Under the pieces are notes generated by a model. It made no database searches and was not told where the DNA came from. It was given only the letters and a program-made list of their open reading frames with translations. A program made the translations under genes and the position numbers. Shown here one piece after another: positions 1-18,444 of a DNA stretch of 35,100 bases (its first letter is position 1; each line of letters begins with the position of its first letter). The stretch spans positions 1 to 35,100 of the IMG/VR virus record IMGVR_UViG_3300020452_000244. One strand, 5' to 3'. The stretch comes from a virus.

Positions 1-2786
1 TTTAACAATGCAACCATCTTATGAAGTCTTTCCCAGTTTGCTGGAACATGTTTTTGTTTCCAGATTTGACCCATTAATTTGTCAAGACTTTTCTCTGGGT
101 CTTTTTCATCAAATGGTAGTTTAGTCATCTTTGCAAGCATCTTACCATATGTTTTTAACTTAATTACATTAGTAGAAGATAATGCTTCTATTACTACATG
201 ATGACCTTTCCACTCTCTTGACTCGTTTGCATGTTGAAGTGCAAGTTTAATTGCTGGTAATTTAGTTAATCCTTTTTTAAGTTTTTCAATTTCTTTCATT
301 GCATAAGTGTGATTACCACTTAAATCAAGTGCAAGTTCAATTGCTTTTTTAACTGTTTTATCTCTTGCAGCCATTTTTTGTTTTGGATTGTCTTTGTAAT
401 ACTTTTGTATTTCTGAACCAGTGAGTTTAGATTTACCCATTTTAGATAGTGGGTCTAATTTACCATCTTTAACTTTTTCATTTACTGCTTTTTCTAAATC
501 TTTTGCTTGACCAGCATGGGCTTTACTTGCACCTTTTAGTTTTTTGATTATCTGTTTTACTTTTGGTTTATCATTATTATCAAGTTCTTCTGGTAAAGGT
601 TTAACCCCAGCTTTCTTAAACATTTTCATCACTTCTTTTTCTGTAGCTGGTTTAATTTTTCCTGTTTCTTTACCCATTGCATTTACAGTTTTCATAAATC
701 CTTGTGGATTTTGTTTCTGCATTGCTTTAATAACTTTAACACCTGTCATGTTAAGAAGCATTGCAACACCTAGTCCTGCTATTCTATTACCTTTTAGATT
801 GAATAGTTTATCAATCATTTCCTCAGCACCTTCTTGGACTACCTCAAAGTTTTCTTTTTGCAATAACATTTTAGTGTTAAGTGTACCGATAAGTGTAAGA
901 ACTTTATTTCTTGCATCTAAGATTGCTTTGTAATTTTTGTTATGAACTGTATTCTTGAGTTCTTTGTCACCCATGTTTGCAATCTTCTGATAACCTTTCA
1001 TTACCGCTTGCATATCTTTAGATAACTTTTTCATTGCATCTACTTCAACTTTTTGAACTTCATCGAGTTGAGTTTCTTCTACAGACTCTTTCATATACCT
1101 GCCTGCATCTTGAATTCTAGTTAATACACCATCTTTACTTGAAACACTAACATGATTTCTCATACCGAATTCATCTATTGCTTTTAACATTGCATTTAGA
1201 CCCTTGTCGATATTTAATTTTCCATTATAGTTATTAACTGATACTTCATGAGATTGTGCAAGAACTTTACCACCAAATGCTTTTACAGCATTTTTCATGT
1301 CGTTGTATAGTTCTTTAACTTCTGATGGTGCAAGACCACCACCTCTAATTAAACTTGTAGGTGTAGATGCAGACTTAACCAACTCTAACCATTTCTGTTT
1401 ATCTTTTTCAGAACCCCTTGCACTTGGAACTCTGATTGCAATAGAATTACAGTCATCTGCTAAACTAAATGCATTACTTTTAATGTCTTGATATAAATCT
1501 GATTTTTCTATAGTAGAATGACTTGAAAGTTTCTTACCATCGTATTTGTTAGAGTTTGCTCTTTGTGGTCGATATGTTAGTTTGATTTTTCTACCAGACA
1601 TACCATTCATTTCGTTAAGTACTTCTACTTCTTTTGTTTCAGATACTTGTTGCATCTGTGTATATGCATCTGCAACTGACCTAGTTATGGATGCAGATGT
1701 TTTTGATTCACCTCTCATACCACCATATGAACCAACACTTGCTTTGATAACTGCTTTCTTACCAAGTTTAATTTTCTTTCCAACTTTCTTTCTTGCACTT
1801 CTGATTTTGTTTATAATCTTTCCAAATATACCAGATAACATACCTTCTTCGATAGATTCCCCTTCATAGTCATATGATTCAAATACAACTTCTCCACCAC
1901 CAGTTGTGTCATAAATTGCTTTATACAATTCTTCTCTAGTCATAGTATCATTAGAACCCATCTCTCTAGGTAATTTATTAAACTCTTTATACATAAAGTT
2001 CCAGAGATGACTTGCAATCATATCTTCATTGTAAGGTTCATCATCGAATTTTAATTTTTGTGCTTTTGCATATTCTGATTTTAGATAATTATTCATCATC
2101 ATGTTTGCACGAGACGCTGCAGTTCTACCTTTTGATTGGTCATCTGTACTTTTACCTGTTAAGAATGCAAAATAGTAATCTCCAGTTCTGATTGGATAAC
2201 TAAGAGCCTTCCAACTGTTGTTTGTTCCTTTGAACCTATCATTAGGTGCATAAACAACTATATCTGCTTCGTTATCGATTATCCATTGTTTTTCTTTTGC
2301 ATCAAAACCAACTGCATTTGCATATTGTTGAACTGTCATCTGTTTTGACATTGCTTCTGTAAGTTCTACACTTTCAGAGAACGATTGATTCTTGTTAGGT
2401 TTGTTTATATATTGTGGAAAGTTATTCCCATATTGTTTTTTATATTTTTCTGGGTTACTTGCAACAGTTTTTAACCTGTCTATGAAATCTTTAGGATTCT
2501 TTTTATATGCTTTTGCATTGTCTACAAAACCATGCATTCTAACCCAAGTATCTAATACTCTATATAATTTTGAATTTTTGGATGCCCAAACATTTGCAAA
2601 ATCTTTTTGCAACATATTTGTTGTAAGGTTAACTTCATTAAGTTCTTCTTCACGAACTTCTTCTATGAGAGAATCTATCAACTCTTCATTTAGTATATCT
2701 TCATTTATTTCAAATGTAGGCTTTGCATACATAGACCTGTATGCATCTGCAACTGTATTAACAGTTTTGATATCTCTCTGTGACAT
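1..2786 (-). CDS. Giant phage protein of unknown function, 3' end outside window
   Basis: An open frame reads without a stop from an ATG at 2786 to the window edge, giving more than 928 codons, so the C-terminus is missing. The start follows the previous gene's stop by 2 nt and has a GGAAA stretch upstream. The protein is lysine-rich and mostly helical in appearance. Near its N-terminus it has a TVADAYRSMY motif, repeated later as SVADAYTQM and matched by SVADAV in the next gene upstream. There is a hydrophobic stretch around IAGLGVAMLLNMTG. No enzyme motif was recognised. Its place behind a T4-type late promoter and beside other lysine-rich late proteins suggests a virion or internal head protein. 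That is inference only. Function unknown. Confidence 0.85.
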   Translation of the reverse strand, partial: MSQRDIKTVNTVADAYRSMYAKPTFEINEDILNEELIDSLIEEVREEELNEVNLTTNMLQKDFANVWASKNSKLYRVLDTWVRMHGFVDNAKAYKKNPKDFIDRLKTVASNPEKYKKQYGNNFPQYINKPNKNQSFSESVELTEAMSKQMTVQQYANAVGFDAKEKQWIIDNEADIVVYAPNDRFKGTNNSWKALSYPIRTGDYYFAFLTGKSTDDQSKGRTAASRANMMMNNYLKSEYAKAQKLKFDDEPYNEDMIASHLWNFMYKEFNKLPREMGSNDTMTREELYKAIYDTTGGGEVVFESYDYEGESIEEGMLSGIFGKIINKIRSARKKVGKKIKLGKKAVIKASVGSYGGMRGESKTSASITRSVADAYTQMQQVSETKEVEVLNEMNGMSGRKIKLTYRPQRANSNKYDGKKLSSHSTIEKSDLYQDIKSNAFSLADDCNSIAIRVPSARGSEKDKQKWLELVKSASTPTSLIRGGGLAPSEVKELYNDMKNAVKAFGGKVLAQSHEVSVNNYNGKLNIDKGLNAMLKAIDEFGMRNHVSVSSKDGVLTRIQDAGRYMKESVEETQLDEVQKVEVDAMKKLSKDMQAVMKGYQKIANMGDKELKNTVHNKNYKAILDARNKVLTLIGTLNTKMLLQKENFEVVQEGAEEMIDKLFNLKGNRIAGLGVAMLLNMTGVKVIKAMQKQNPQGFMKTVNAMGKETGKIKPATEKEVMKMFKKAGVKPLPEELDNNDKPKVKQIIKKLKGASKAHAGQAKDLEKAVNEKVKDGKLDPLSKMGKSKLTGSEIQKYYKDNPKQKMAARDKTVKKAIELALDLSGNHTYAMKEIEKLKKGLTKLPAIKLALQHANESREWKGHHVVIEALSSTNVIKLKTYGKMLAKMTKLPFDEKDPEKSLDKLMGQIWKQKHVPANWERLHKMVALL

Positions 2787-2788
2787 AG

Positions 2789-3313
2789 TTATTTTCCAGT
2801 TCTTTTGTTATCGTAGATTAGTGAATCTTTTTTCACATATCCAAGTCTTCGAAGTGTTTCTTTAAAAGACTTACTTCTTGCATCGTATCGTGTTTCAGAT
2901 GCATCTTCGTTTTTATCAATTGCTTTTGATATTGCTTTTCTTTTCTTGTGCAAGAATTTATCAGATGAATCAACATCACCATCGTTATCGATGTCTTTGT
3001 CTTTTCTATCTTTAAATTTTTTCTTTGCAGACTTTGGATTTGCTTTATCTAAACCTTCACCATCATCAGACTTGTCGTTAGATGCATCTTCTTGTTGAAA
3101 AAGTTCTGCAACTTCTTTTTTAAGTTCATCTACAAAAGTTTCTGCAACTTCTGGTTTATCCTGTAAAGGATAATTATGAAGTGCAGCTTGTTTCTCATAT
3201 CGAGTTTGAGGTGCTTGTCCAGAATTAAGTACTTCTGAGACCGCGTCTGCCACAGATTTTGTGACTTTATCAGTCCCACTATTGAATTTCATTCTATCAT
3301 TTATATCAGACAT
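2789..3313 (-). CDS. Small acidic/basic late protein with an EF-hand-like calcium loop
   Basis: A 174-residue hydrophilic protein whose ATG is preceded by GGAG with good spacing and, further up, by a T4-type late promoter. Near residues 105-117 it contains DIDNDGDVDSSD, which matches the DxDxDGxxxxxD pattern of EF-hand/dockerin calcium loops. The same loop followed by lysine-rich helices is, from memory, common in proteins of marine T4-like phages. The N-terminus carries SVADAV, resembling the VADAY motifs of the downstream giant protein. No signal peptide or membrane segment is present. It is probably co-transcribed with the giant gene. A structural or packaged role is inferred from promoter class and neighbours; no specific function can be named. 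Confidence 0.85.
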   Translation of the reverse strand: MSDINDRMKFNSGTDKVTKSVADAVSEVLNSGQAPQTRYEKQAALHNYPLQDKPEVAETFVDELKKEVAELFQQEDASNDKSDDGEGLDKANPKSAKKKFKDRKDKDIDNDGDVDSSDKFLHKKRKAISKAIDKNEDASETRYDARSKSFKETLRRLGYVKKDSLIYDNKRTGK

Positions 3314-3342
3314 TGTGGTCTCCTGTTAAATCTTTCTTATAG

Positions 3343-3350
3343 TATTTATA
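3343..3350 (-). promoter_or_regulatory. T4-type late promoter
   Basis: The minus strand reads TATAAATA followed by CTATAAG, a full match to the T4 late promoter octamer recognised by the gp55/gp33 sigma system. It lies about 30 nt upstream of the start at 3313, leaving room for the GGAG ribosome site. Confidence 0.8.
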
Positions 3351-3372
3351 TATATCACTAATTAGACTATTA

Positions 3373-4986
3373 TTATCCTTTTGGATTTTTAGACTTTTTG
3401 TTCTTATTTTGTCTAAATTGTGCAAGTCTTTCTATTTCTTTCTTCTTAACTTTAGGTAACATTTTCTTTGCCATTTTTGCAATTTTACCTTTCTTTTTAT
3501 CAAGTTTTTTTGCAATTGCAACTCTAGTTCCTAATGGTACTTGGCCTGGTGTTTTACCACCTGTTTGTTTTTTAAATAGTTTTAATCTTGCAGCTTTTTG
3601 TGCTCTTTGTAGTAATTTTCCATTAGAAGCCATTCTTTTTTGTGCTTTCTTCTTTGCAATTTTAATTCTGTTTGAAAGTCTCTTCATTCTCATTCCGATT
3701 GCTCTTCTTTGAGACATGTTAAGTACTTCTAATCTTAGTTGTCGTTGTAGTTCACTGTTAAATCTACCTTCTGCAACCTTATGTGTTTTCTTTGCCATGT
3801 TCATAGCAGTTCCATGCATTACTTCTTTTGATTTTTCTCCATACTCTTGGTCAAAGTATTTTTTCTTTTTCTTAAGGTCTTTATAAATCTTTTCTTTAGT
3901 CTTCATGACTTCTGGAGATACATTCTCAGATGAACAATGTGATGCATTTATTTTCTTACCATCCTTGTCATACTTACCAGATTTTTTCTTTGAGATTGCA
4001 ATTGCAGCTTGTTGTGCTGGAGAGACTCCTTTTCCTTCATCTTGTTGACCTGTTTCTACATTTTTAAGTCTAGTCAATCTTAATCTATCTCTATCTTTTT
4101 CTTTATCTTGTTTATCTTTAAGTTGTTCTCTTTCTCTACTTTGTTTATCTTTTAATGCATCTGTGACTCTATCTTCATTGTAAGGAAATCCTTTCAATGG
4201 ACTATCAAATCTTAGTTTTTTAGATTTTGGTTTTTTTGCTTGTTCTTCCAATCTTCTCTCCATTTCTGCTGGATGTTCATATGCAGCTGCAAGTGCAACA
4301 TTTTTCATGGGTTTCATTGTTAATGCAGTTTTCCATGCAGTTGCCATTTTGTTAGTAGGAAACGATTTAACAAAAGATTGTAGTCTAGGGAACACTTTAG
4401 TTGTATTCTTCTCTAAATCTTTTGTATCTCCATCGTTGTCTATGATAAAGAAATTAGTTCTTCCGAATGTGTTTTGTAATTTACCCATGTTTGCACGAAC
4501 AACTTTATGATTGTCTTGTACGATTTTGTCTGGGATACTTCTATCTCTTGTTCTATTTCTGTCTAATGCAGTCTCTAAAGAAGTGTTTACAAATACCATT
4601 GCAGTTTCATAACCGAGTTGTTCTAGTAAAACTTTTTGTTTGATTATCTTTTTGATATCTCTTGCAGTAGAATCAATTACAAGTCCTAACCGACCTTTAA
4701 TATACATTTCTTGTCTTTTTGCAGTTATTGCTTTTGCATGAACTCTTACTGCATCTCTTTGTTCTTCTTCACCTTCTGGCATCTTAAGTGAAAGACCTGC
4801 TTGTTTTAATCCTTTTTCAAATGATGTGTCTGAGTTTACATCTCGTAAACCCATAGTTCCAAATCCAAGTTTTTTGGATGCAAGGGATTTTCCAGAACCT
4901 GGCCCACCTGCCATAAAGACAGCTTTAAACACGCCTGGGTCGTTTATTCCCTCAAGTAATGATTCGTATTTCTCTTCCAATGTCAT
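3373..4986 (-). CDS. P-loop kinase-like protein with long basic C-terminal tail
   Basis: A 537-residue protein. Residues about 20-190 form a P-loop NTPase: Walker A GGPGSGKS near residue 27, an IDSTARD strand, and a DRNRTRDRS lid-like arginine segment. This layout resembles zeta-toxin/polynucleotide-kinase-type AAA_33 kinases; the substrate is unknown. The rest is highly lysine/arginine-rich and includes short modules (a SPAQQAAIAISKKK segment, a YGEKSKEVMHGTA segment, and a repeated-helix tail ending in MLPKVKKKEIERL) that I recognise as recurrent in cyanophage and pelagiphage late proteins. The start overlaps the end of the nucleotidyltransferase gene by 35 nt, so the two are translationally coupled. 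The basic tail suggests nucleic-acid binding or packaging in the head, which is inference. Confidence 0.8.
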   Translation of the reverse strand: MTLEEKYESLLEGINDPGVFKAVFMAGGPGSGKSLASKKLGFGTMGLRDVNSDTSFEKGLKQAGLSLKMPEGEEEQRDAVRVHAKAITAKRQEMYIKGRLGLVIDSTARDIKKIIKQKVLLEQLGYETAMVFVNTSLETALDRNRTRDRSIPDKIVQDNHKVVRANMGKLQNTFGRTNFFIIDNDGDTKDLEKNTTKVFPRLQSFVKSFPTNKMATAWKTALTMKPMKNVALAAAYEHPAEMERRLEEQAKKPKSKKLRFDSPLKGFPYNEDRVTDALKDKQSREREQLKDKQDKEKDRDRLRLTRLKNVETGQQDEGKGVSPAQQAAIAISKKKSGKYDKDGKKINASHCSSENVSPEVMKTKEKIYKDLKKKKKYFDQEYGEKSKEVMHGTAMNMAKKTHKVAEGRFNSELQRQLRLEVLNMSQRRAIGMRMKRLSNRIKIAKKKAQKRMASNGKLLQRAQKAARLKLFKKQTGGKTPGQVPLGTRVAIAKKLDKKKGKIAKMAKKMLPKVKKKEIERLAQFRQNKNKKSKNPKG

Positions 4987-5611
4987 TTCTTATATACTCT
5001 GGTATATGATGGAACTCCTCTGAGAGTCCCATTCCTTTTCTAACTGATTTATACAGTTGTTTTCCTTGTCTAAAAGTTCTTGGTAATGAGGAAGTAAACC
5101 CCTTCTCATCACTATCGAAAGCCATTGCTCTCATCTTAGATGCAGACATTCCAGATATATCATCTGAATCTGGGTCTCTTTCACCTGCTGACACCACTTG
5201 GATATCAGTAAAGTTGTAGAAACCATGTCTTCCTTTTACATCATTGTACTTTTTAAGTAAACCTTCAAACTCTTTTAATCTATCTGAACCAGCAACCATC
5301 TTGATACTTCTATATCCTTGATTATATAAATCAACAACTACATCAAATACTGTTCTAGAATTAGATGTAGAAACTGTTACTTTTGCTGGTCTAAACAAGA
5401 GTTTCATAAACTTTGTTTTGGTTCTATAATCTAATGGATTTTTCTTTGGGTCTTGACTATGACTTGTATAGATAAACCCATCATCTGAACCTGCGACTTG
5501 TTTTACTTTCATTGCAAGTTTGAGGTGTCCTGCTGTAGGTGGATTGAATCGACCAAACGCAAAGACTGCTTCTTTCGATTTTACCTCAGTTATGTCTTTG
5601 AAAGATTTCAT
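4952..5611 (-). CDS. NMNAT-like nucleotidyltransferase
   Basis: A 219-residue protein of the HIGH nucleotidyltransferase superfamily. Residues 20-29 read GRFNPPTAGH, the nucleotide-binding HxGH-type motif, and a later ISGMSASKMR segment is the expected ISxxSxxxxR signature that contacts ATP phosphates. Such enzymes transfer a nucleotidyl group to a phosphate acceptor, for example NMN or phosphopantetheine. The exact acceptor cannot be told here. The N-terminus MKSFKDITE resembles the capsid-targeting peptide of T4 internal head proteins. A CATAAATA late promoter lies 5 nt before the ATG, with no Shine-Dalgarno sequence, suggesting a leaderless late transcript. It overlaps the downstream P-loop kinase, so the pair may act on one substrate. 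Confidence 0.85.
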   Translation of the reverse strand: MKSFKDITEVKSKEAVFAFGRFNPPTAGHLKLAMKVKQVAGSDDGFIYTSHSQDPKKNPLDYRTKTKFMKLLFRPAKVTVSTSNSRTVFDVVVDLYNQGYRSIKMVAGSDRLKEFEGLLKKYNDVKGRHGFYNFTDIQVVSAGERDPDSDDISGMSASKMRAMAFDSDEKGFTSSLPRTFRQGKQLYKSVRKGMGLSEEFHHIPEYIRNDIGREIRIIT

Positions 5612-5616
5612 ATAGG

Positions 5617-5624
5617 TATTTATG
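5617..5624 (-). promoter_or_regulatory. T4-type late promoter abutting a start codon
   Basis: The minus strand reads CATAAATA-CCTAT-ATG. With normal late-promoter spacing the +1 base is the A of the ATG at 5611, so the message should have no leader. One base differs from the TATAAATA consensus. Confidence 0.6.
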
Positions 5625-5628
5625 TATT

Positions 5629-6774
5629 TTAAAACTTGTGTTGGTTATTTTTTAGACCTTCATAATCTAGATTTATAAATTCACGACATTTATCCCACCA
5701 CTCTTTCATGTCTTCATCTTCTTGTAATTCAGATAAAACATGTTGTCTTATATGTGGTGTTATATTCATATGTGTATGACTGTGAGAATTTTGCCAGTTT
5801 TTTACATGATGTTCTTCTTTTATTTCTTTGTTTATAAACCCTAATTCAACTAAATTATCTATTACACCAGCAGACTTTTTTAATGAGTCATGGTCTATGT
5901 TCATTTGATTATGTTCTTGAGAAAATGTGTAATCTATATCGTGTTTGTAATGAATAAAATTTTGATATACATCAAACATACTTTTACCATTCCATAAAGG
6001 TCTTGATAAAAGGAAAGTATGATTCATTTGTTGACCATCTAATCCACCAAATAATAACCATTCTGGTTCACAACTATATAACATTCTTTTTGCAGAATTA
6101 TATAATTTTTCCCACCCCTCTTCTGAATGTCCATTTTTTTCATACTTCCAAGGCGTTGAAATACCATTATCCATTTCAGTTATGACACCAGATACAAATC
6201 TTTCAAATGGGTCTCTTACTAGTAAATATGTTGTCCAATCTTTAAAGTAAGATAATGTTTGGAATGGTGGTGATAAATCTAGTTGTCGATGTTCAAACCA
6301 CTCTGGTGCAATTTCTTGTCCGAAATCCCAAGCATTATAATCACCAAGATATTTTTTTGTATCTTCTTCACCTCTAACTAATACTTTTGCATTTTTATAA
6401 TATGGATTACCTACATCTGCTTTTTCTAATGAAGGTACAAGGAATATTCGAGAATCTAAACCATAAGTATCTTCTACAATACTTTTAAACTCTTCTTGAT
6501 TTAACCATGTTTTTGGATTACGATTTTGGTCTTCTAACCAAATCCAATCATCGTCAAACATTTCATTTTGAGAATGTAGATAAAATCGAATTGATGAGTG
6601 TCCTACTTTACGAGGAGTCGTAAATAAAACTTTTCTTTTTTTAGAAATGAATGTTGGATGGTTTCGTTCCCAACATGTTTCACCTTCAAATCTAGGAACT
6701 ATTGGTGGGCCATTATTAATTACAATTTCTTGATTGTCATTTAATGTAGCAAAGTGCCTCAATGAATCTGTCAT
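5629..6774 (-). CDS. Sulfotransferase family protein
   Basis: A 381-residue protein with the two PAPS-binding signatures of sulfotransferases. The 5'-phosphosulfate loop is FTTPRKVGHSSIRF at residues 51-64, and the 3'-phosphate site is LLVRDPFERFVSG at about residues 184-196, with R187 and S195 in the expected places. These enzymes move sulfate from PAPS to a hydroxyl or amine; the acceptor here is unknown. It has no signal peptide, so it acts in the host cytoplasm. GGAG precedes the ATG and the gene follows the ligase-like gene by 16 nt. Sulfotransferases occur in some marine phages, where virion or host-surface glycan modification has been proposed. That role is only possible here. Confidence 0.8.
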   Translation of the reverse strand: MTDSLRHFATLNDNQEIVINNGPPIVPRFEGETCWERNHPTFISKKRKVLFTTPRKVGHSSIRFYLHSQNEMFDDDWIWLEDQNRNPKTWLNQEEFKSIVEDTYGLDSRIFLVPSLEKADVGNPYYKNAKVLVRGEEDTKKYLGDYNAWDFGQEIAPEWFEHRQLDLSPPFQTLSYFKDWTTYLLVRDPFERFVSGVITEMDNGISTPWKYEKNGHSEEGWEKLYNSAKRMLYSCEPEWLLFGGLDGQQMNHTFLLSRPLWNGKSMFDVYQNFIHYKHDIDYTFSQEHNQMNIDHDSLKKSAGVIDNLVELGFINKEIKEEHHVKNWQNSHSHTHMNITPHIRQHVLSELQEDEDMKEWWDKCREFINLDYEGLKNNQHKF

Positions 6775-6790
6775 AATATATCTCCATAAT

Positions 6791-8002
6791 TTATTTGTCC
6801 CAATCTTTCTGGACTGTAAAGTTATTTAGTGAGAATTCCATTCTATCTACTAACTTCACTGCACCACCTAAATTGTCATCAATTGCAACGAACCCTTCTG
6901 GTGCAACCACATCATAACCATTACCTTTTTTAACAAACATACTGGTTAATTGATTTGCTTGGTTTAACTTATATAGTATCTTAGTTTTACCATAATTTAT
7001 AAGTGCTTGAAACTCTACCAACTTAACAAGGTCTGGTAAAGTCTTTCGTATTTCTGATAAAAACATATCTTTGTTTTTTGTTTTTGCTTCTTTACCTTTT
7101 GGTGATTTTAGTTTATCTACTTCTTTTTGTAGTTTCTCTTCTGCAAACTTGAAGTATCCATTTGCATGATTTTTATAATTCATTCTAAGAAGATTATCAC
7201 CTGCTCTAACTCTACTGTTGTGATATGTTTTATAAGTTGCACCTTGTGGCATACTATCTTGCATTTGAAGAAACTTTGTAAGTTTAGGTGAACTAATTGA
7301 CTGGAAAGTTTTTCCAGCTCTAGACATTAGTCTTTGCATTTCTGTCGTATCTTTAAAATTAAATGTTGCAGTTCCAGATACATCATTGTATTCTGCATTG
7401 TCCATCCAAACTTTTGAAGATTTTTTTAGTTTAGAAATGTCTGCACCAAACGATGCACTCATATCTGATAATGTTGAACCAGAATATGTGGTATGCCAAA
7501 CAACCCCTACATTTGCTTTCCTCATAGTAGATGCAAGTTTAGATGTAGAAGGGACTGCATAAGTGATTGTATTGGGCCCAAAGGTAATGTATTTTTCTTT
7601 GTTGATTGTTTCAGTTTTCAAGTCTCCTTTGGTAAACATTAAATCACCCTGTAAGATTCCTTTAATACCTAAGTCTTTAAAGTTATCTAAACATACTTTA
7701 AACTTACTTGCAAGGTCTCCAGAGAGTTTTTCATCTATATCTGCATGTGATGTATAGTATTCTTGTTTCTTTGCAAACAATCCTTTCTTTGCAACTATAA
7801 ACTCACCTGTCTCTGGATGTTCACCGACAAATACTGCTGGAGCACCATCCCATTTTACAGTGACATTCTTTACACCTTTACTACCAGATGATAACATTTT
7901 GGTCAATGATAGTAAAAATAGAATAGATTGTCTTGCACCATCAACTCCAGAGTTGAAGATTTCATCTTCGATATGTTCTAAATGTAAATTTGCTTTTGCC
8001 AT
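6791..8002 (-). CDS. Polynucleotide ligase-like nucleotidyltransferase (DUF6267-type)
   Basis: A 403-residue protein showing the covalent nucleotidyltransferase motif set of ATP-dependent DNA/RNA ligases: K50-W-D-G (motif I, lysine that would be adenylylated), GILQGDLMF (motif III-like) at about 113-121, EGFVAI (motif IV) and a VKLVDR segment (motif V-like) near the C-terminus. The MAKANLHLEHIEDEI opening is one I recall from a conserved marine phage family labelled DUF6267. Whether it seals RNA, DNA or modifies something else is unknown. Its ATG overlaps the stop region of the PAP2 gene by 1 nt. Neighbouring nucleotidyltransferase and P-loop kinase genes hint at an RNA repair or tagging set, which is inference. 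Confidence 0.8.
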   Translation of the reverse strand: MAKANLHLEHIEDEIFNSGVDGARQSILFLLSLTKMLSSGSKGVKNVTVKWDGAPAVFVGEHPETGEFIVAKKGLFAKKQEYYTSHADIDEKLSGDLASKFKVCLDNFKDLGIKGILQGDLMFTKGDLKTETINKEKYITFGPNTITYAVPSTSKLASTMRKANVGVVWHTTYSGSTLSDMSASFGADISKLKKSSKVWMDNAEYNDVSGTATFNFKDTTEMQRLMSRAGKTFQSISSPKLTKFLQMQDSMPQGATYKTYHNSRVRAGDNLLRMNYKNHANGYFKFAEEKLQKEVDKLKSPKGKEAKTKNKDMFLSEIRKTLPDLVKLVEFQALINYGKTKILYKLNQANQLTSMFVKKGNGYDVVAPEGFVAIDDNLGGAVKLVDRMEFSLNNFTVQKDWDK

Positions 8003-10119
8003 TATATCAGTGGGAATGATTTTGCAGATGATGTTATTTTAACATTTTGGACTTCTAATCCAAAAAAGTTTAACAGTGCATTGAACATTCCTTTTCCTAA
8101 TTCTTTGATTTTTTTAAATACTGCTTTGACTCTTTTCATAATTGCATCTAAGATTTTCTTTGCTTGATTCTTTATTGTAGAACTTACATTTTTAACCTTT
8201 TGCACTAGTCTACTGAACATCTGAAATTCGTTTAGTTGTTCTATCTTACCTTCATGTAAAAGTTGCATTCCTATTCTTTCGTTTTGTAATTCTTCTTTTA
8301 CTATTTGTGCAAACTTAACATTACCACTTCTCATTGAAAGATAAGGTCTAGAACCACCACCACCTGTTTTAAATGATACATAAAATTTGTTTGTTTGTGC
8401 AAGAACTTTTGCATCCTTTGGTTTTTTCATAGGAAGATGTTTAGTAATTATTACTTTGTCTGGATTAAACTCTACTAATTCATTTGCAACTGCAAGTGGT
8501 TCTGCAAATTTTCCTGTTCCAGTTGCAGCTTCGAAACAAAAATATTGTTTAAATTCTATATCATCAAAAAGAGAAGTCATTTCAGCAGTTAATTCTTTTG
8601 CAGTAAATTGTAGGTTCTCCATTTGTTCTATACTTTTCTTTTGTGCTGGTGTTAAAGGTTTACCACTATCTCTAAGTTTTTCTAATGCACCTATAGTTCC
8701 TTTTTCATTCATCTCACCCATTTTCTTTTCTAAACTATCAATAACACCTTTAACTTTTCTAGGTGAACTTTCTCCCATCATTCCCATTGCAGATTCAAAA
8801 GTTGAAATTGTTTCTTCTTTTTTACCAGACATTAATTGTGAACCACCTGCTTTCTTTAATGATATTTTTCTTTTTTTACCATCACCAAGTAAATCTGTTT
8901 TAGGTGTGGTGTTTTTTCCTTTCCATTTTGGATTTAATTTTGCAGAGGAAGCACCATATTGTTCTAGTTTCTTAACCCCTAATTGTTTTTTAAATAGTTC
9001 ACCAACTTTGATTGCATCCTCTCCATAGTTTGCCCAAAACTTTTCTGCTCTATCCCATTCTGCACCTTCTTGTTTATCATTAACTGCAACTGCAATTAGA
9101 GCTTCCCAATCTTCTCCAGATGGTGTTGGATTTCCATCTGGTAATCTAGTAAAGTAAGAACCATAAGAACTTGCAGTACCAGCTAAAGTTATTGATTTAC
9201 CATCTGGTGCTTTTAGTTGTTTCCTTGCATCACCTTTTCCGATATCTACTGGTAATCCTTTATCATCTTCAACTTCAAACACATCACCAGACTTGTATCC
9301 TAATGCATTTAATTTACCCCATTTACCATTGTATAAAAACTGAAATCCTGTTTTATATTTTCCTTGCATTACAGATGCTTCAGTTAAAATACTAACTAAA
9401 CTATTAAAACTTTCAAGGTTTCCCTGTGGTTTCCCTAGTTTTTGTTTTATATGGTTGTATAATGCACCAGCAAGTTGATGTCCGAACTCTGTATCTGTTG
9501 GGTAATGAACACCACCAATTTGTCTAGAGTGTCCTATATCGTCTCCTATCTTTTTGATATTACCTTTGTGTTCAAAAGGAATTTTTTCTGCAAGATATAG
9601 ACTTACAAATCTACCTTCTGTTGCATGTCCAGATGGATACGAAGGTGTTTCTGCTGTTTTTAATGCATGAACTACAAAGTTTGTTTGAAACATGAACTGT
9701 AGTGCATTTGCAAGTTTTTGTGGTCTGGGTCTGTTATAGTGTAGTTTAAGTTGTAGAACAATAGGTGCAAGATTATCTTTTAAAACTTTAACCTCATCTA
9801 TAAGTTTCATATCTAGGTTATGTTTTTTAAAATAATCTCTATATGGTTTCATGACTTTTGTGTCAACCATATCCATAAACTCTACTTCTTTACCTTGTCT
9901 ATATTGTTCGTAACTCTGTAAAGTTTTTAACTCTCTTTTAACATAATCAGATGAATTTGGTTTTGGAGTATAGTCTAACCACATTTGAGTTGGAAAGTCT
10001 TCAAACACTCCTTTATCAGACTCCAATTGTTTCTTTCTTTTTGGAGACAATTGCATATCATGACCCATAGAATCAATAGTTTCATTTTCATTTATTTGAT
10101 GTTGATTAAATCGTTTCAT
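8002..10119 (-). CDS. PAP2-type phosphatase domain fused to a large phage C-terminal region
   Basis: About 705 residues from the ATG. The first third has the complete PAP2/vanadium-haloperoxidase active site: a KLHYNRPRP segment, then PSYPSGHAT, then SRQIGGVHYPTD, giving the phosphate-binding Lys/Arg, the Ser-Gly-His and the catalytic His. It lacks transmembrane helices, so it would be a soluble phosphatase. A central region contains a KTDLLGD...ISLKKAGGSQLMSG stretch that I recall from other marine phage late proteins and which is faintly like a PD-(D/E)XK core. The C-terminus is a run of cationic amphipathic helices. An 18-codon TTG extension upstream is open but overlaps the terminator and promoter, so the ATG at 10119 was chosen. 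It has no Shine-Dalgarno sequence and sits 5 nt after a CATAAATA late promoter. Confidence 0.8.
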   Translation of the reverse strand: MKRFNQHQINENETIDSMGHDMQLSPKRKKQLESDKGVFEDFPTQMWLDYTPKPNSSDYVKRELKTLQSYEQYRQGKEVEFMDMVDTKVMKPYRDYFKKHNLDMKLIDEVKVLKDNLAPIVLQLKLHYNRPRPQKLANALQFMFQTNFVVHALKTAETPSYPSGHATEGRFVSLYLAEKIPFEHKGNIKKIGDDIGHSRQIGGVHYPTDTEFGHQLAGALYNHIKQKLGKPQGNLESFNSLVSILTEASVMQGKYKTGFQFLYNGKWGKLNALGYKSGDVFEVEDDKGLPVDIGKGDARKQLKAPDGKSITLAGTASSYGSYFTRLPDGNPTPSGEDWEALIAVAVNDKQEGAEWDRAEKFWANYGEDAIKVGELFKKQLGVKKLEQYGASSAKLNPKWKGKNTTPKTDLLGDGKKRKISLKKAGGSQLMSGKKEETISTFESAMGMMGESSPRKVKGVIDSLEKKMGEMNEKGTIGALEKLRDSGKPLTPAQKKSIEQMENLQFTAKELTAEMTSLFDDIEFKQYFCFEAATGTGKFAEPLAVANELVEFNPDKVIITKHLPMKKPKDAKVLAQTNKFYVSFKTGGGGSRPYLSMRSGNVKFAQIVKEELQNERIGMQLLHEGKIEQLNEFQMFSRLVQKVKNVSSTIKNQAKKILDAIMKRVKAVFKKIKELGKGMFNALLNFFGLEVQNVKITSSAKSFPLI

Positions 10120-10125
10120 AATACT

Positions 10126-10133
10126 ATTTATGC
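10126..10133 (-). promoter_or_regulatory. T4-type late promoter abutting the PAP2 gene start
   Basis: The minus strand reads CATAAATA-GTATT-ATG just downstream of a terminator hairpin. The expected +1 is the A of the start codon, predicting a leaderless late mRNA. The boundaries could be off by one base. Confidence 0.55.
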
Positions 10134-10469: not shown

Positions 10470-10585
10470 GTTATAATTCCCATTCCAAAGAGCGTCATCT
10501 TCACTATGAATCTATTTTTCTGCACTCTTTTTCGATACATTATTAATGGTAAAGCATCTTCACCAATCTTATAGTATTTATGCAT
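10433..10585 (-). CDS. Possible 50-residue membrane protein
   Basis: An ATG at 10585 opens a 50-codon frame that overlaps the end of the HAD gene by 8 nt and the start of the coiled-coil gene by 37 nt. The product has a basic N-terminal half (MYRKRVQKNRF segment) and a C-terminal hydrophobic stretch, LFGMGIITCLMIMGI, that could span the membrane. A late-promoter-like CATAAATACTAT lies inside its first codons, so either the ORF is read from the upstream transcript, or translation starts at the internal ATG (residue 16), or it is not a gene. The tight packing of the region supports a real small gene only weakly. Confidence 0.4.
   Translation of the reverse strand: MHKYYKIGEDALPLIMYRKRVQKNRFIVKMTLFGMGIITCLMIMGINQAL
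10575..10582 (-). promoter_or_regulatory. Possible T4-type late promoter
   Basis: The minus strand reads GCATAAATACTATAAG, one base from the TATAAATA consensus with the favourable CTAT context. It would drive the small coiled-coil gene about 100 nt downstream. It overlaps coding sequence, so confidence is limited. Confidence 0.45.
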
Positions 10586-11162
10586 TTTCTGAACCTACGC
10601 CTGATGAAATGTTTGCTAAATACTCTTCTTGGGTTTCAACCTCTGATTCAACAATTTTCATACCATTTCTTAACATTTTTAACTCTTTAATAGTGTCTCT
10701 TGCATTCTTATGAAGAATACCAACACCACCTTCTGATTCCCATGCATCGATGTTTGACTGTCTGTCGTCTATCAAAACATTACCTTTCTTAGAGAAGATT
10801 CTCTTCTGACTACCACTATGAGTGCATGTTACTACCACAAAAGGGTCAACATACTCCTTAATCCATTCATTTTTATCCCAAACTACAAGTTGTCTGTTTA
10901 CTGCACCAGCAGCTGTCAATATCTCCCAATTGATTCCAGTATGTTTAATATACCCAATCAACTCATGATAATCTACTGTAGGTGGTAATTTTCTAAAACA
11001 CCTTTTATCTGTTAACTCTTTCTTTCTTGCATCATATTCACTATGACCATAGTTGTCATTCCCTAAAGGGTGACCTATCATTTGACTGATACCAGTCTCA
11101 AAGTCGACAAGGACTCCATCCATGTCAACAAAAATATTTTTTAATGTTCCTTTATTTTCCAT
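10578..11162 (-). CDS. HAD-family 5'-deoxynucleotidase-like phosphatase
   Basis: A 194-residue HAD hydrolase. D13-M-D15-G-V-L-V-D is motif I with the nucleophile and acid/base aspartates, ILTAA is motif II, and VLIDDRQSNIDAW is motif IV. The layout matches the 5'(3')-deoxyribonucleotidase (NT5C) group, which removes the phosphate from dNMPs, so a role in adjusting nucleotide pools during replication is likely. It has no signal peptide. It follows the previous gene by 6 nt and lies in the early operon below the sigma70-like promoter at 11878-11907. Other HAD substrates cannot be excluded. Confidence 0.85.
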   Translation of the reverse strand: MENKGTLKNIFVDMDGVLVDFETGISQMIGHPLGNDNYGHSEYDARKKELTDKRCFRKLPPTVDYHELIGYIKHTGINWEILTAAGAVNRQLVVWDKNEWIKEYVDPFVVVTCTHSGSQKRIFSKKGNVLIDDRQSNIDAWESEGGVGILHKNARDTIKELKMLRNGMKIVESEVETQEEYLANISSGVGSENA

Positions 11163-12429: not shown

Positions 12430-13076
12430 GTGTTGAATGTTGAAGCGTTCTCGAAATCGTGGTGGACATTACCAGCAATACAATATCTTGGAGTTTGTGA
12501 TTTTACTGGTTTTACTTGGTGATAACAGTATGCTGGAAAGATTACCAGTTGACCTGTATGTGGTGGAATGGTAAGAAGAGTTTCTCCCCATTGTAAAGTT
12601 TTATCTTGAACATGTTCTGCACACATAGATAAATCCATTTCTATACTACCATTTGGAACAGTGCATATTTCTAATGGTTGTGTTTTTTTTGTATCTTCAA
12701 TATATGGATAATATGTCCAACTTGTATGTGCTGGGTCATGATTATGTGCTGGAGTAACATCATTTACATTATATCCCATTCCCCATACTTGAGTAAATAC
12801 TGGTTTGTAATCTTGTATATTACTCCAATATTCTTGTATTTCATATCCAATCCAATCTAACAATTGTTGAATATATGGACTATCGAATGATTTCCAACCT
12901 GTAAAATGTGAAACACCTGCGTTGATTGTATCATGAACACCTTCACCCTTTCCATCCATTTCATGAATGTAATCTACAAGATTATTACTTAAATCGTAAA
13001 TTTCTTTGGGTGCAATTGTAGTATAGACCTTTGTGTTTACACTTTGGTCTCCTACAAAATTAAATCTCCCATCCAT
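12426..13076 (-). CDS. 2OG-Fe(II) oxygenase-like protein
   Basis: About 216 residues from the ATG at 13076, which has GGAG 9 nt upstream; the frame is open 32 codons further, inside the helicase gene, but without a good site. The C-terminal half matches the putative 2OG-Fe(II) oxygenase family common in phages: PAHNHDPAHTSW supplies the first metal ligands, and LVIFPAYCYHQVKPV followed by RYCIAGN supplies the distal His and the 2-oxoglutarate arginine. Such enzymes hydroxylate proteins or nucleic acids; the target is unknown. It overlaps the helicase gene by 17 nt, so it belongs to the replication operon. Confidence 0.8.
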   Translation of the reverse strand: MDGRFNFVGDQSVNTKVYTTIAPKEIYDLSNNLVDYIHEMDGKGEGVHDTINAGVSHFTGWKSFDSPYIQQLLDWIGYEIQEYWSNIQDYKPVFTQVWGMGYNVNDVTPAHNHDPAHTSWTYYPYIEDTKKTQPLEICTVPNGSIEMDLSMCAEHVQDKTLQWGETLLTIPPHTGQLVIFPAYCYHQVKPVKSQTPRYCIAGNVHHDFENASTFNT

Positions 13077-14445
13077 CAGTTTTTTCTCCAGAAATTCTTT
13101 TACCAGACTCACTCTTGTCGAATGCAGGGCCAGAATCATGTAATTCTTCTGTTGCAGATTGTTCAGTATCATACAACTTCATACGACTTCTATCTACACC
13201 TATAATGAATCTTCTGTAATATGTTGGGTCATTATATCTATTCTTTAATTGTTTAACCATGATTTGGTCTAACTCTTCTAGTTCTTCTGTAGATATCAAT
13301 GCAACCATCAAGTCTGCTGTTGCTGGTAATCCAAATGATTCAGATGTATCTTCAAGTCCTACATCTGTTGATGTAAATCCTTGTCTGTTAGTTTGAGTTG
13401 CAGTCATGATTGGTAGTTTAAACTCCACTGCAAGACCTCTTAACTCTTCTGCAATACTCTTAACCATTGTGTAAGAGTTTACACTTGAACCTGCTCTCAT
13501 TCTTGACGATGCACAAATGTTTAGATAATCAAGATAAATGATATCTGGAATAAAGTCTTTTTTAAGATTAAGTTCTTGTAGTAAATGTCTAAAGTGTCCT
13601 GTATGTGCAGATGCAGTAGGATACTCTTTAACAATCAACTTACCTGTAGTCTTATCACGAATAGATTTAACTTTCTTATCATACATATCTTTTGGTAAAT
13701 TAGAAAGGTCTTGAATAGGTAAGTTCATAAGATTTGCATCAATTCTTTCTGCAATCTTTTCTTCACTCATTTCCATAGATATGTAAAGTACATTCTTACC
13801 CATCATAAGATTGTTAGCTGCACAATGACACATGAATAGTGATTTACCAACACCTGTTCCTGCCATAATAACATTCAAGGTTTTATTTGGTAAACCACCC
13901 TTCGTAATCTTGTTCATCATTTCAAGGTCAAATGGTAGTTTGTCTTCTACAGTATTATAAGATATAAATCTATCATCTGAGTCTTCGATAAAGTCATGAC
14001 CAATGTGTTGGTCAAAAGAAACTGACAATGCATCTTTTAGAATATCTGGAATCTCACCTTTTTCTCTGGATGATGATTTGTCAATAATCTGAATACTTTC
14101 CATAACTGCATTATAGATTGCTCTATCTTTACACCATTTTTCAGTTTCATCTACTAAAAAATCATGTGGTGTTTCATCAGTATTTTGTTTACACTGATTA
14201 ATTGTAGTCATAGCATTCTTTACATCTTCATCATTAACACCAGTCAAATCATTAAGTTGAATACTAAGTGCTTCATGAGTAGGACACTCATTATACTTCA
14301 TAAAGTATTCAGTAATTTGTTTATAAACTAATCGTTCAGACCTATCTGAAAAGTAATCTTCCTCAAGATAAGGAAGAACTTTTCTTGTAAATGTATCTGA
14401 AACAAATAGATTCTTTAGTATAATTTCTTCAATTCTATTCTGCAT
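13060..14445 (-). CDS. 41: Replicative DnaB-type helicase, gp41-like
   Basis: A 461-residue protein close in length to T4 gp41 (475). It has Walker A GTGVGKS at about 196-202, an IIYLDYLN Walker B strand, an arginine-containing [16 protein letters not shown] region near the end, and an N-terminal helical domain. It would unwind DNA 5'-3' as a hexameric ring at the phage fork, with primase. It overlaps the end of uvsX by 11 nt and is co-transcribed with it from the promoter at 15512-15539. Confidence 0.93.
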
Positions 14446-15963: not shown

Positions 15964-18444
15964 TTAATTAAAAAAATCTTCTAGAGAAGACTGTGGTTCA
16001 GTCGACCATCCTATTTTTTCAAGTATTAATTTGAGGGGTTCAATGAATGACTTATCAAATTGTAAATCATAATCTATGTAGTTATGGAGTTCAAACTCTC
16101 TAGGTAAAGTATTTATAAAACCTATGACATTCTCTTTGTGTGGATTTGGTATTTTTAAATATAGAAACCTAATACTCTCACCACTTGATATTGGTTCGAA
16201 TTGCATGTCTAATCCTTTTTGATTTATTAGATGATTAAACATTAAGGATGCTCTTACATGCATTGGTGTTCCTTTTCTATAGATAGAAACTGCATTTGCA
16301 TATTCAATAAGATTGTTTACTCTTCTAGGAAATGCAATTTCATATGGGTCTAATTCTTTAAACTCTTTACTTGCATTATCAACAAACTCATGAACAAGTT
16401 TTTCATCACCTTTCATGACAACTTTGATTGCATCTTCTAACTTATTACGAACCCATTGTGGTGTTGATGACTTTGCAGTTTCGATACCCATCATTTTGAG
16501 TTTAGGTTCTTTTAATCTAACACCTTCGTTATCATGTACATTAAGAATGTATCTTTTCTTTGCAGTCCAAATACCTTTGTCTGCAATTACTTCTCGACCC
16601 ATGACCATCTTGTTTTGATATGCACTAGTATATTCTGCAAGTTCTTTATAACATTTGTTTATGACTTCTTGCATTTTACCATTACCAACTTGGTCTAGAA
16701 ACTCAATTGGATTCTTTGGATTAACTTTTTTAACAAGTTCATCAAATCTTACATAAATTGAATCAGTATCAATTGCAACAACATAATCATTTTCTGTTTC
16801 TAAAATAGTATTTAAGTATTTGTTAACTGCATGTTCGACCCATTTAATTGCAAGTTGACCACTAGATGTAACAGCCTCTGCAAGACCAATCTCAAAATAT
16901 CTGAACCACTCATTACCAATTGCACCATAAGCACTGTTCAAAGAAATCTTACGAACCATCTGATTGTTATATGCAATTGCAATATGTCTATTCAGTTCTT
17001 GTTTTCTTCTAGGGTCATCTGTAGTCTCAAACTCTTTCTGATACTCAATCATCTTATTCTTCCATAAGACTCTTTCATCATACAAGTTCTCTAGAATCTC
17101 TGGAAGGAATCCTTGTTTTCTTTTACTGAACTTTGCACCATTTGGTGTTTGTGCAAATAAGTTATTTGTTTTGACTTCCTTTCTTAACATCATATCAACA
17201 TTAGTTGTATCACTTGTCATTCCAGAGAATGTCTCTGGACTAATGTTGTATTGCATAATTAAATGTGGATACAGAGAGTTTAAGTCAAATGACATAACCC
17301 AGTTATGCATTCCTACTTGTGGTTCTTTAACATATGCACCCATAAACTTTTGTTTTTTAGGAGCACCACCTCTTGAGGGTGGTACGATAATGTTTTGTTG
17401 ACGAAGACGATTGAATATTAGAATATCCCAGTATCGAACTTGTCTGAATGTATCAAGATAGTTACACTTTGCAGTATATGCCATCTGAATCATTAGACCC
17501 ATCAATCCTAGTTTATCTTCTAGTTCTTCTACCAAAGTCACATCACGAACATTATACTCTAGGAACTTTTGATAATCTTTCTTATAGAATAGATGCATTG
17601 CACCAAACTCTTCGTAATTGATTTTACCTTTACCAAGTTCTATTTGTGATATGTTTTCTAGTTTGTAACTGTCTCTTCTTTTAAATGTAAACTTCTGATA
17701 AAGTTGCAAGTAATCTACAACCTCAACACCTGTTAGAGTATATGCTTGTTGTTTCTTACCAAAAGTATCCCACTCTCGAACAGTTGTTATGTTCCAAGGC
17801 GATAGTTGGTCTGCAATAGTATTACTGAATAGTTTACTAATCCTATTATAAAGATAAGTGATATCGAACTGGTCAACATTCCAACCAGTAATAATGTCTG
17901 GGTAAATCTTTTTGTATTCTTCTAAGAAAGTCTTGAGAAGTTGTTTTTCATTTTGACAATGAAAGTATTTGATTGTTGGGTCGTTGTGTTCCCATTCTTG
18001 AGTTCCAAACACATACTTGGTATCTTTACCAAACATCTTGAAACTAATTGCATTGATTTCTTCTGCAGCTTCTGTTGGTTCTGGGAATCCATTTTCACAT
18101 TCACATTCTATATCAAGATTCATGATACGAACATGTCTCATCATCCACTCAATATCTTGAGGAAAGTACTCTGCAATATAAGCGTAAGGATGTCTCTCAA
18201 TCCCATGTACATCAAAACCTTCTACATCTTTCCACTTCTCACGAAACTGTCGTGCTTGTGCAATAGAGTTAAACTTCTTGGGTTCTAGGTTTTGTCCTTT
18301 TACAGAACGAAAGGATGAGTCTTTGTTTGTTGGAACATAGAAAGTAGGTTTGAATTGTACTTGTTTTTGAATGTACTCCCCATCCTTGAACTCACGAACA
18401 AGGATTAGGTTTCTATGTTGATAAACATTTGTATAAAAGTGCAT
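15964..18444 (-). CDS. 43: Family B DNA polymerase gp43
   Basis: An 826-residue polymerase, somewhat shorter than T4 gp43 (898). The proofreading exonuclease is intact: D111-I-E113 (Exo I), NVDQFD around 189-194 (Exo II), YNVRD at 297-301 (Exo III). Polymerase motifs follow: DLNSLYP with D387 (motif A), KISLNSAYG near 499-507 (motif B), DTDS at 559-562 (motif C). It replicates the phage genome with the sliding clamp and the gp44/62 loader. The TATAAT of a strong promoter ends 6 nt before the ATG and there is no Shine-Dalgarno sequence, so a leaderless mRNA is predicted. In T4, regA is next to this gene; here about 11 kb separates them. Confidence 0.96.
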   Translation of the reverse strand: MHFYTNVYQHRNLILVREFKDGEYIQKQVQFKPTFYVPTNKDSSFRSVKGQNLEPKKFNSIAQARQFREKWKDVEGFDVHGIERHPYAYIAEYFPQDIEWMMRHVRIMNLDIECECENGFPEPTEAAEEINAISFKMFGKDTKYVFGTQEWEHNDPTIKYFHCQNEKQLLKTFLEEYKKIYPDIITGWNVDQFDITYLYNRISKLFSNTIADQLSPWNITTVREWDTFGKKQQAYTLTGVEVVDYLQLYQKFTFKRRDSYKLENISQIELGKGKINYEEFGAMHLFYKKDYQKFLEYNVRDVTLVEELEDKLGLMGLMIQMAYTAKCNYLDTFRQVRYWDILIFNRLRQQNIIVPPSRGGAPKKQKFMGAYVKEPQVGMHNWVMSFDLNSLYPHLIMQYNISPETFSGMTSDTTNVDMMLRKEVKTNNLFAQTPNGAKFSKRKQGFLPEILENLYDERVLWKNKMIEYQKEFETTDDPRRKQELNRHIAIAYNNQMVRKISLNSAYGAIGNEWFRYFEIGLAEAVTSSGQLAIKWVEHAVNKYLNTILETENDYVVAIDTDSIYVRFDELVKKVNPKNPIEFLDQVGNGKMQEVINKCYKELAEYTSAYQNKMVMGREVIADKGIWTAKKRYILNVHDNEGVRLKEPKLKMMGIETAKSSTPQWVRNKLEDAIKVVMKGDEKLVHEFVDNASKEFKELDPYEIAFPRRVNNLIEYANAVSIYRKGTPMHVRASLMFNHLINQKGLDMQFEPISSGESIRFLYLKIPNPHKENVIGFINTLPREFELHNYIDYDLQFDKSFIEPLKLILEKIGWSTEPQSSLEDFFN

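Follow-up and report, generated by a model that had tools for sequence, protein, structure and literature searches.

Introduction

Among described systems, those closest to the locus considered here are the internal proteins (IPs) of phage T4, which, as set out in PMC9026906, carry an N-terminal propeptide of 10–19 residues that targets the prohead core, the gp21 protease cutting after L/I-x-E; ten residues of IPIII are enough, with residues 4 and 7 serving targeting and residues 8 and 10 serving processing, and both Alt and the IPs are ejected. A second point of reference is offered by the polyvalent proteins of phages and conjugative elements, described by Iyer et al. (2017; PMC5512222) as carrying several activities in one delivered polypeptide that is then split by proteolysis. 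The present work concerns the viral record IMGVR_UViG_3300020452_000244 (positions 1–35,100; this whole stretch of 35,100 bases is referred to as the window), and within it a gene on the minus strand at 8002–10119 whose product of 705 amino acids (aa) joins a PAP2 phosphatase domain to a second, predicted nuclease-like module and a cationic tail. We consider it moderately probable that this protein is a late, head-targeted, gp21-cut precursor of head-packaged enzymes, belonging to a T4-like marine phage related to pelagiphages and methylophages. Its packaging, cutting and ejection, and a joint action of its parts on host DNA or nucleotides, are what we infer from sequence, motifs, a predicted fold and the presence of gp21 in relatives. 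A sequence-only reading of the same DNA had already suggested an enzyme carried in the virion, possibly for removing phosphate from lipid or nucleotide at entry; carriage in the virion gains support from the targeting-like N-terminus, from motifs of the prohead protease where the domains meet and from related genomes that have gp21.

Organization of the gene and its product

The open reading frame (ORF) begins with the ATG at 10119, from which the complete close relatives also align; an alternative in-frame TTG further 5′ would lengthen the protein by 18 residues. The gene and its parts are as follows.

8002..10119, minus strand: whole ORF, 705 aa plus stop; the stop shares one base with the ATG of the DUF6267 gene (6791–8002)
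10125..10132, minus strand: late promoter octamer CATAAATA, 5 nt before the ATG
10087..10119, minus strand: capsid-targeting-like propeptide, residues 1–11 (MKRFNQHQINE), with a cut predicted after E11 from its likeness to T4 IPI–IPIII
9379..10086, minus strand: PAP2 phosphatase domain, residues 12–247 (Pfam match at residues 123–221)
9379..9387, minus strand: predicted prohead-protease site LTE|A, residues 245–247, at the border of PAP2 and the second module; an LxE stands here in 48 of 49 sequences
9160..9378, minus strand: small beta-rich segment, residues 248–320, with weak structural likeness to SH3-like barrels (Z ≤ 5.3)
8317..9159, minus strand: PD-(D/E)XK-like core, residues 321–601, with invariant E339, D409, S420-x-K422 and Q428
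8227..8259, minus strand: LHEGKIEQLNE, residues 621–631, with a predicted prohead-protease site or pair of sites (LHE|G, LNE|F) preceding the tail; [LIV]xE at E631 in 53 of 53
8005..8226, minus strand: cationic amphipathic helical tail, residues 632–705, of low model confidence

The sequence-only reading had described PAP2 as joined to one late-protein tail of about 450 residues. The fusion stands, whereas the single tail does not, since the roughly 460 residues in question fall into three pieces, namely the beta-rich segment, the nuclease-like core and the cationic tail. The last of these bears out the cationic, amphipathic C-terminus of that account, as residues 632–705 hold 15 K + R against 3 D + E (pI 10.7) and the helical hydrophobic moments of the whole protein peak within residues 632–682.

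Prohead-protease motifs and the targeting-like start

Relatives of the second module, called MspI-like here after its best structural match, are encoded at 153 places in IMG/VR, and the best 80 of the 153 were kept. We regard the position of LxE at the domain borders as stronger evidence for cutting by a prohead protease than the start of the protein. In 48 of 49 sequences an LxE lies no more than 16 residues ahead of the MspI-like module, against a mean of 13.7 in shuffles (maximum of 2000 shuffles, 27); it is mostly 4–10 residues from the module's first marker, regardless of whether the predecessor is PAP2, another domain or the start itself. Ahead of the cationic tail, every one of 53 sequences has an [LIV]xE. 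The cut sites predicted in the window protein are E11, E247 and E631, with E623 as an additional one. The motifs are also seen where PAP2 is missing: locus L035 begins MKSFNAFLAE|ASIL, and L014, which has lost PAP2 and kept two successive motifs, begins MKSFKTYLHE|SNNFLAE|ASIL.

The N-terminus resembles the T4 capsid-targeting sequence, a likeness newly recognised here, in that MKRFNQHQINE has the aromatic residue 4 and the terminal L/I-x-E of the T4-type propeptide; T4 IPII and IPIII start with MKTYQEFIAE|A. When the pattern M-x-x-[FY]...[LIV]-x-E was scored on 63 distinct family starts and on 2000 shuffles, it was present in 38 starts (shuffle mean 10.9, maximum 26), with E at residue 9–11 in 31 (shuffle mean 2.7, maximum 10); F or Y occupies residue 4 in 48 of the 63, and the pattern occurs in 21 of the 22 distinct PAP2-bearing starts. 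Cultured relatives of the second module begin in the same manner, Melnitz with MQGFKTFLSE|A and HTVC008M with MLSFTGYSNLSE|A. Targeting-like starts are likewise carried by two neighbouring genes, the cytidylyltransferase gene of the window (4952–5611, minus strand; MKSFKDITE) and, in a 146-kb relative, the neighbour of the PAP2 gene (L133, 10585–11310, minus strand; MKSFRRYIAE|G), whose 241-aa product matches phrog_2859 in its C-terminal half.

A candidate protease is at hand in related genomes, the gp21 family (PF03420) being present in 9 of 14 related records, of which the 5 without it are fragments of 35–64 kb. The 146-kb relative, whose copy of the 705-aa protein is 80% identical, has matches to gp21, gp22, gp23 and gp20, and in its gp23 an LSE|D lies within one alignment column of the LTE|A site of T4.

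Several points weigh against a packaged, gp21-cut precursor. The window, itself a fragment, holds no gp21 in its 35 kb. The full pattern is missing from 25 of the 63 distinct starts and F or Y at residue 4 from 15, and the start Met was picked with a preference for M-x-x-[FY], which biases the counts towards the motif. In T4 the strict pattern matches 11 of 338 ORFs, among which the only internal proteins are IPII and IPIII, IPI being missed, and in the 146-kb relative it picks out 6 of 297 ORFs; the targeting-like start alone proves little, because the strict pattern also matches T4 ORFs other than internal proteins. The window start departs from T4 in having E at residue 11 rather than 10, H at residue 7 and N at P1′, and cyanophage phrog_1462 proteins of the same locus start without the motif. 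As to the borders, the count of 48 in 49 leaves out 13 sequences in which no module marker could be recognised; where nothing lies upstream of the module, the start motif is the LxE motif, so that the two counts overlap; and the conservation of LxE at E631 may be structural.

Late promoter and genome context

PMC2984593 describes NATAAATA as the late promoter of cyanomyoviruses. In the window, CATAAATA at 10132–10125 ends 5 nt before the ATG of the 705-aa ORF, in agreement with the late promoter assigned by the sequence-only reading, and it is kept in relatives: in 37 of 65 distinct family members the octamer precedes an in-frame ATG by 3–9 nt, the distances seen being 5 or 6. Of 297 ORFs in the 146-kb relative, 8 have an octamer that ends 5 or 6 nt before the ATG, vs 0 of 338 T4 ORFs. 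Late expression of the gene is predicted from this octamer. If the geometry of T4 promoters applies, as we assume, transcription would start at or beside the ATG and yield leaderless late mRNAs; our search of the open-access literature found no report of such mRNAs in T4-like phages. CATAAATA also lies at 5617–5624, 5 nt before the ATG of the cytidylyltransferase gene, and octamers close to an ATG occur in L136, L133, L131 and other pieces of genome G001.

The window carries T4-like replication genes, encoding a DnaB-type helicase (13060–14445) and a family B DNA polymerase (15964–18444) whose nearest relatives, at 46%, are those of methylophage Melnitz, pelagiphage Mosig and cyanophages. The gene under study lies amid these early-type genes yet has its own late promoter, and it therefore fits a virion role. 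The same location lends some weight to the alternative that survives best, though we think it unlikely: a late enzyme that is never packaged and processes host DNA and nucleotides in the cytoplasm, its motifs being a family habit or structural. Such an enzyme would be at home inside a replication cluster, where 19 of 42 testable loci have DnaB upstream of the family gene, where DUF6267 immediately follows that gene in 27 of 63 (13 of 18 PAP2-bearing loci with room for it), and where the window has a 5′-nucleotidase-like gene at 10578–11162; the same-locus cyanophage proteins, with no targeting-like start, would suit it too. It does not explain, however, an LxE at each border, held at a near-fixed distance over changing neighbours, nor the targeting-like starts in all but one of the PAP2-bearing members, nor a late promoter of the gene's own, apart from the early cluster.

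The other neighbours are noted for completeness. The DUF6267 gene (6791–8002, minus strand) corresponds to T4-like GC 71 of cyanophages and is matched by 406 phage records; its product contains a KWDG motif that may resemble motif I of nucleotidyltransferases or ligases. A gene for a sulfotransferase-family protein (5629–6774, minus strand; E 2.4e-5) separates it from the cytidylyltransferase gene, and 3373–4986 (minus strand) encodes a protein whose Zeta-toxin/AAA-type kinase domain (E 1e-9) leads into a C-terminal half very rich in lysine.

The PAP2 domain

Members of the PAP2 superfamily share the motif K-x6-R-P, P-S-G-H, S-R-x5-H-x3-D. In the 705-aa protein, Pfam PAP2 (PF01569) is matched at residues 123–221 with 28.3 bits (E 1.7e-6; gathering cut-off 27.2), and the site reads K125-x6-R132-P133 / P162-S163-G164-H165 / (S198)R199-x5-H205-x3-D209. 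Apart from S198, none of these residues differs among the 28 PAP2 sequences aligned, which include the window's own, a stand-alone viral PAP2 (L142) and a fusion of cytidylyltransferase and PAP2 (L141); position 198 is S in 19, G in 5 and T in 4. The loss of the active-site His or Arg in relatives, which the sequence-only reading had named as evidence against a virion enzyme, is thus not seen. A membrane-bound PAP2 was rejected because the protein has no hydrophobic segment (no membrane segment; maximum 19-residue Kyte-Doolittle mean 0.82). A complete PAP2 site in a soluble protein, as first read from the letters, is thereby confirmed by sequence comparison, and phosphatase or haloperoxidase activity is predicted.

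Among solved sequences, class A nonspecific acid phosphatases come nearest to the domain (7f17, E 1e-9); the PhoC equivalog NF045654 was set aside, at only 24.2 bits against a cut-off of 430. That PAP2 enzymes are uncommon in phages is upheld by the absence of any match to the domain among 50,697 phage records at E ≤ 0.01, a collection in which the stand-alone PAP2 of L142 has no match either, and in the open-access literature we found no report of a PAP2 enzyme in a phage head. IMG/VR, for its part, has 31 loci matching the domain. A scan of GTDB gave 16 bacterial PAP2 relatives, all distant (the best, from Edaphobacter, 34% over 173 residues), and therefore no recent host donor is seen.

The second module

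The sequence-only reading had singled out a region KTD...ISLKK...SQLMSG and proposed comparing it with PD-(D/E)XK folds. KTD (407–409), ISLKK (419–423) and SQLMSG all lie inside the second domain, and their key positions hold throughout the family: none of K407, T408, D409, S420, L421, K422, Q428 and S431 varies among the 53 members aligned, and the same alignment shows little or no variation at the positions of GE(D)WE, TPKTD, SLK, GGSQ..S and EA(A)(T)G..KF. Sequence searches of the domain gave nothing below E 0.06 in the PDB and weak, scattered matches in Pfam and PHROGs.

AlphaFold modelled residues 250–705 with a pLDDT of 81.7 (about 50–69 in the tail) and the core alone (residues 321–601) with a pLDDT of 92.1 and a pTM of 0.88. 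As the comparison proposed earlier had anticipated, VIA-align ranks a PD-(D/E)XK-type structure, MspI, first for both models, at Z 8.3 for residues 250–705 and Z 9.0 for the core (rmsd 4.6 over 194 residues, 12% identity), where rank 2 stands at Z 5.0. Exo5, RecE and the Hjc resolvases, which we take to be PD-(D/E)XK nucleases, appear further down the core's list at Z 2.9–3.8; HhaI is second in the first list (Z 6.5) and absent from the second, whose candidate set was smaller. D409 and S420-x-K422, invariant as above, occupy strand positions in the core model. For MspI, PMC4081073 states that the lysine is replaced by N, and the likeness we propose is one of fold, not of single residues. Against a nuclease fold, Foldseek found no match at E ≤ 0.001 for either model in the PDB, and in VIA-align a best Z of 7–8 also arises without relationship. 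Among predicted viral structures, Foldseek matched cyanophage proteins (S-RIM50, E 3e-9; ACG-2014f, E 4e-4). Because MspI comes out on top by a wide gap in Z and PD-(D/E)XK nucleases follow lower down, we read the core, with moderate confidence and from models, as a PD-(D/E)XK domain of MspI-like fold, with a putative nuclease activity.

Module combinations

PAP2 has at least three different C-terminal partners, namely the MspI-like module, the type of L115–L117, which is related to cyanophage phrog_1462 (E 1.8e-16 and 1.6e-18), and the type of L120–L128. In a fourth combination (L045/L141, genome G002), cytidylyltransferase and PAP2 share a single ORF of 823 aa. The MspI-like module in its turn stands alone after a short start (L035, L014, L060 and others), follows other domains (L015, L042, L022, L028, L032) or follows PAP2, and in the cultured phages HTVC008M (AGE60460.1) and Melnitz (QZI94969.1) it occurs without PAP2. 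A common origin of the three partners as one family was not backed by hhalign (E 0.37, 0.18 and 0.089); by eye alone, an 'SLKK' strand can be made out in each. Genome G004 (135 kb) has a stand-alone PAP2 ORF of 299 aa (L142) and an MspI-like module without PAP2, and in L095 the module is present in two divergent tandem copies (1534–3114 and 3132–4772).

T4 IPI* blocks GmrSD, and by analogy the protein might be a packaged counter-defence device, its PAP2 domain hydrolysing a phosphate-bearing defence signal and its MspI-like domain or tail blocking restriction; this we judge quite unlikely. Rapid turnover of partners would fit an arms race, and PMC3012670 presents the T4 internal proteins as counter-defence factors with only the targeting sequence in common, but no known defence protein was matched in PADLOC-DB at E ≤ 0.01, a database that lists defence and not counter-defence. 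Most improbable of all is a prohead core or scaffold protein like T4 gp22, gp67 and gp68, cut by gp21 and mostly leaving the head, with incidental enzyme domains: its several LxE sites recall T4 core proteins, which PMC9026906 describes as broken by gp21 into many fragments, but it would need neither a PAP2 site kept in 28 of 28 nor nuclease-like residues kept in 53 of 53, the architecture is variable and the gene absent from T4-type head gene clusters, and the 146-kb relative has a separate match to gp22.

Proposed mechanism and its implications

For a head-packaged precursor of enzymes, the following course may be envisaged. The gene would be expressed from its own late promoter, which is seen in the sequence within the replication cluster, and the first 11 residues, like the T4 capsid-targeting sequence, would bring the protein into the prohead core. 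There the gp21 prohead protease would cut after L/I-x-E at E11, E247 and E631, and perhaps at E623, to give a PAP2 phosphatase of about 27 kDa, an MspI-like nuclease domain of about 42 kDa and a cationic amphipathic peptide of 8 kDa, and these pieces would share the head with the DNA and enter the host by ejection. In the least certain step, the phosphatase and the nuclease-like domain might act at once, their target being either host nucleic acid and nucleotides or a defence signal, and the cationic peptide might bind the DNA in the head or aid membrane passage. A broader idea, which we offer tentatively and hold to be less probable than the precursor itself, is that of a modular 'enzyme cassette' of the head, in which one late gene of T4-like marine phages, with a targeting peptide at its front, would carry phosphatase, nuclease-like and other modules set between prohead-protease sites; these would be swapped between phages, and a kit of phosphatase, MspI-like nuclease and a cationic peptide active on membranes or DNA would be released by the head protease and brought in with the genome.

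If this is true, the T4 rule for loading the head, a short targeting peptide and a cut after L/I-x-E, would reach abundant and little-studied phages of ocean bacteria, and packaged, ejected proteins among their uncharacterised genes would become readable from sequence alone. A phosphatase and a restriction-enzyme-like nuclease would join the list of injected phage enzymes, and the head protease would serve to separate enzymes delivered as one chain. The cultured phages Melnitz and HTVC008M, with their relatives of the second module, make the claim of packaging testable.

Comparison with known systems

With the class A acid phosphatases PhoN and PhoC the window protein shares the catalytic motif, within the PAP2 superfamily; those enzymes have an export signal, whereas here a targeting-like start and fused C-terminal modules are found instead. 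With MspI it shares the core fold as predicted from models, and its invariant D409 and S420-x-K422 may fit a PD...(D/E)xK variant, but S replaces D/E in the window core and no methyltransferase neighbour was seen. The proteins of HTVC008M and Melnitz have the second module, the cationic tail, the targeting-like start and the same adjoining genes; unlike the window protein they are without PAP2, show about 28–30% identity to the queries used and are annotated 'hypothetical protein'.

The polyvalent proteins hold several effector domains in one delivered chain; two domains are seen in the window protein, whose delivery is presumed. They use a built-in metallopeptidase, whereas here a head protease would do the cutting. 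No peptidase family was matched in the 705-aa protein in Pfam at E ≤ 0.1, a search by HMM that may overlook such a domain, but the proposed model accounts for the chain without one. The words 'PAP2' and 'phosphatase' do not occur in the main text of PMC5512222.

The T4 proteins IPI, IPII, IPIII and Alt are comparable in their short propeptide ending in L/I-x-E, which the window protein matches with a targeting-like start, in late expression, predicted here, and in gp21, here found in T4-like relatives, and Alt provides a precedent for an enzyme carried into the head by this route. The likeness to the IPs is one of motif, sequence likeness beyond the motif having been neither sought nor seen. 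The IPs are small proteins of a single domain, whereas the window protein strings together a tail and two enzyme-like domains, separated by additional predicted cut sites, and so it extends the T4-type internal proteins from single to several domains.

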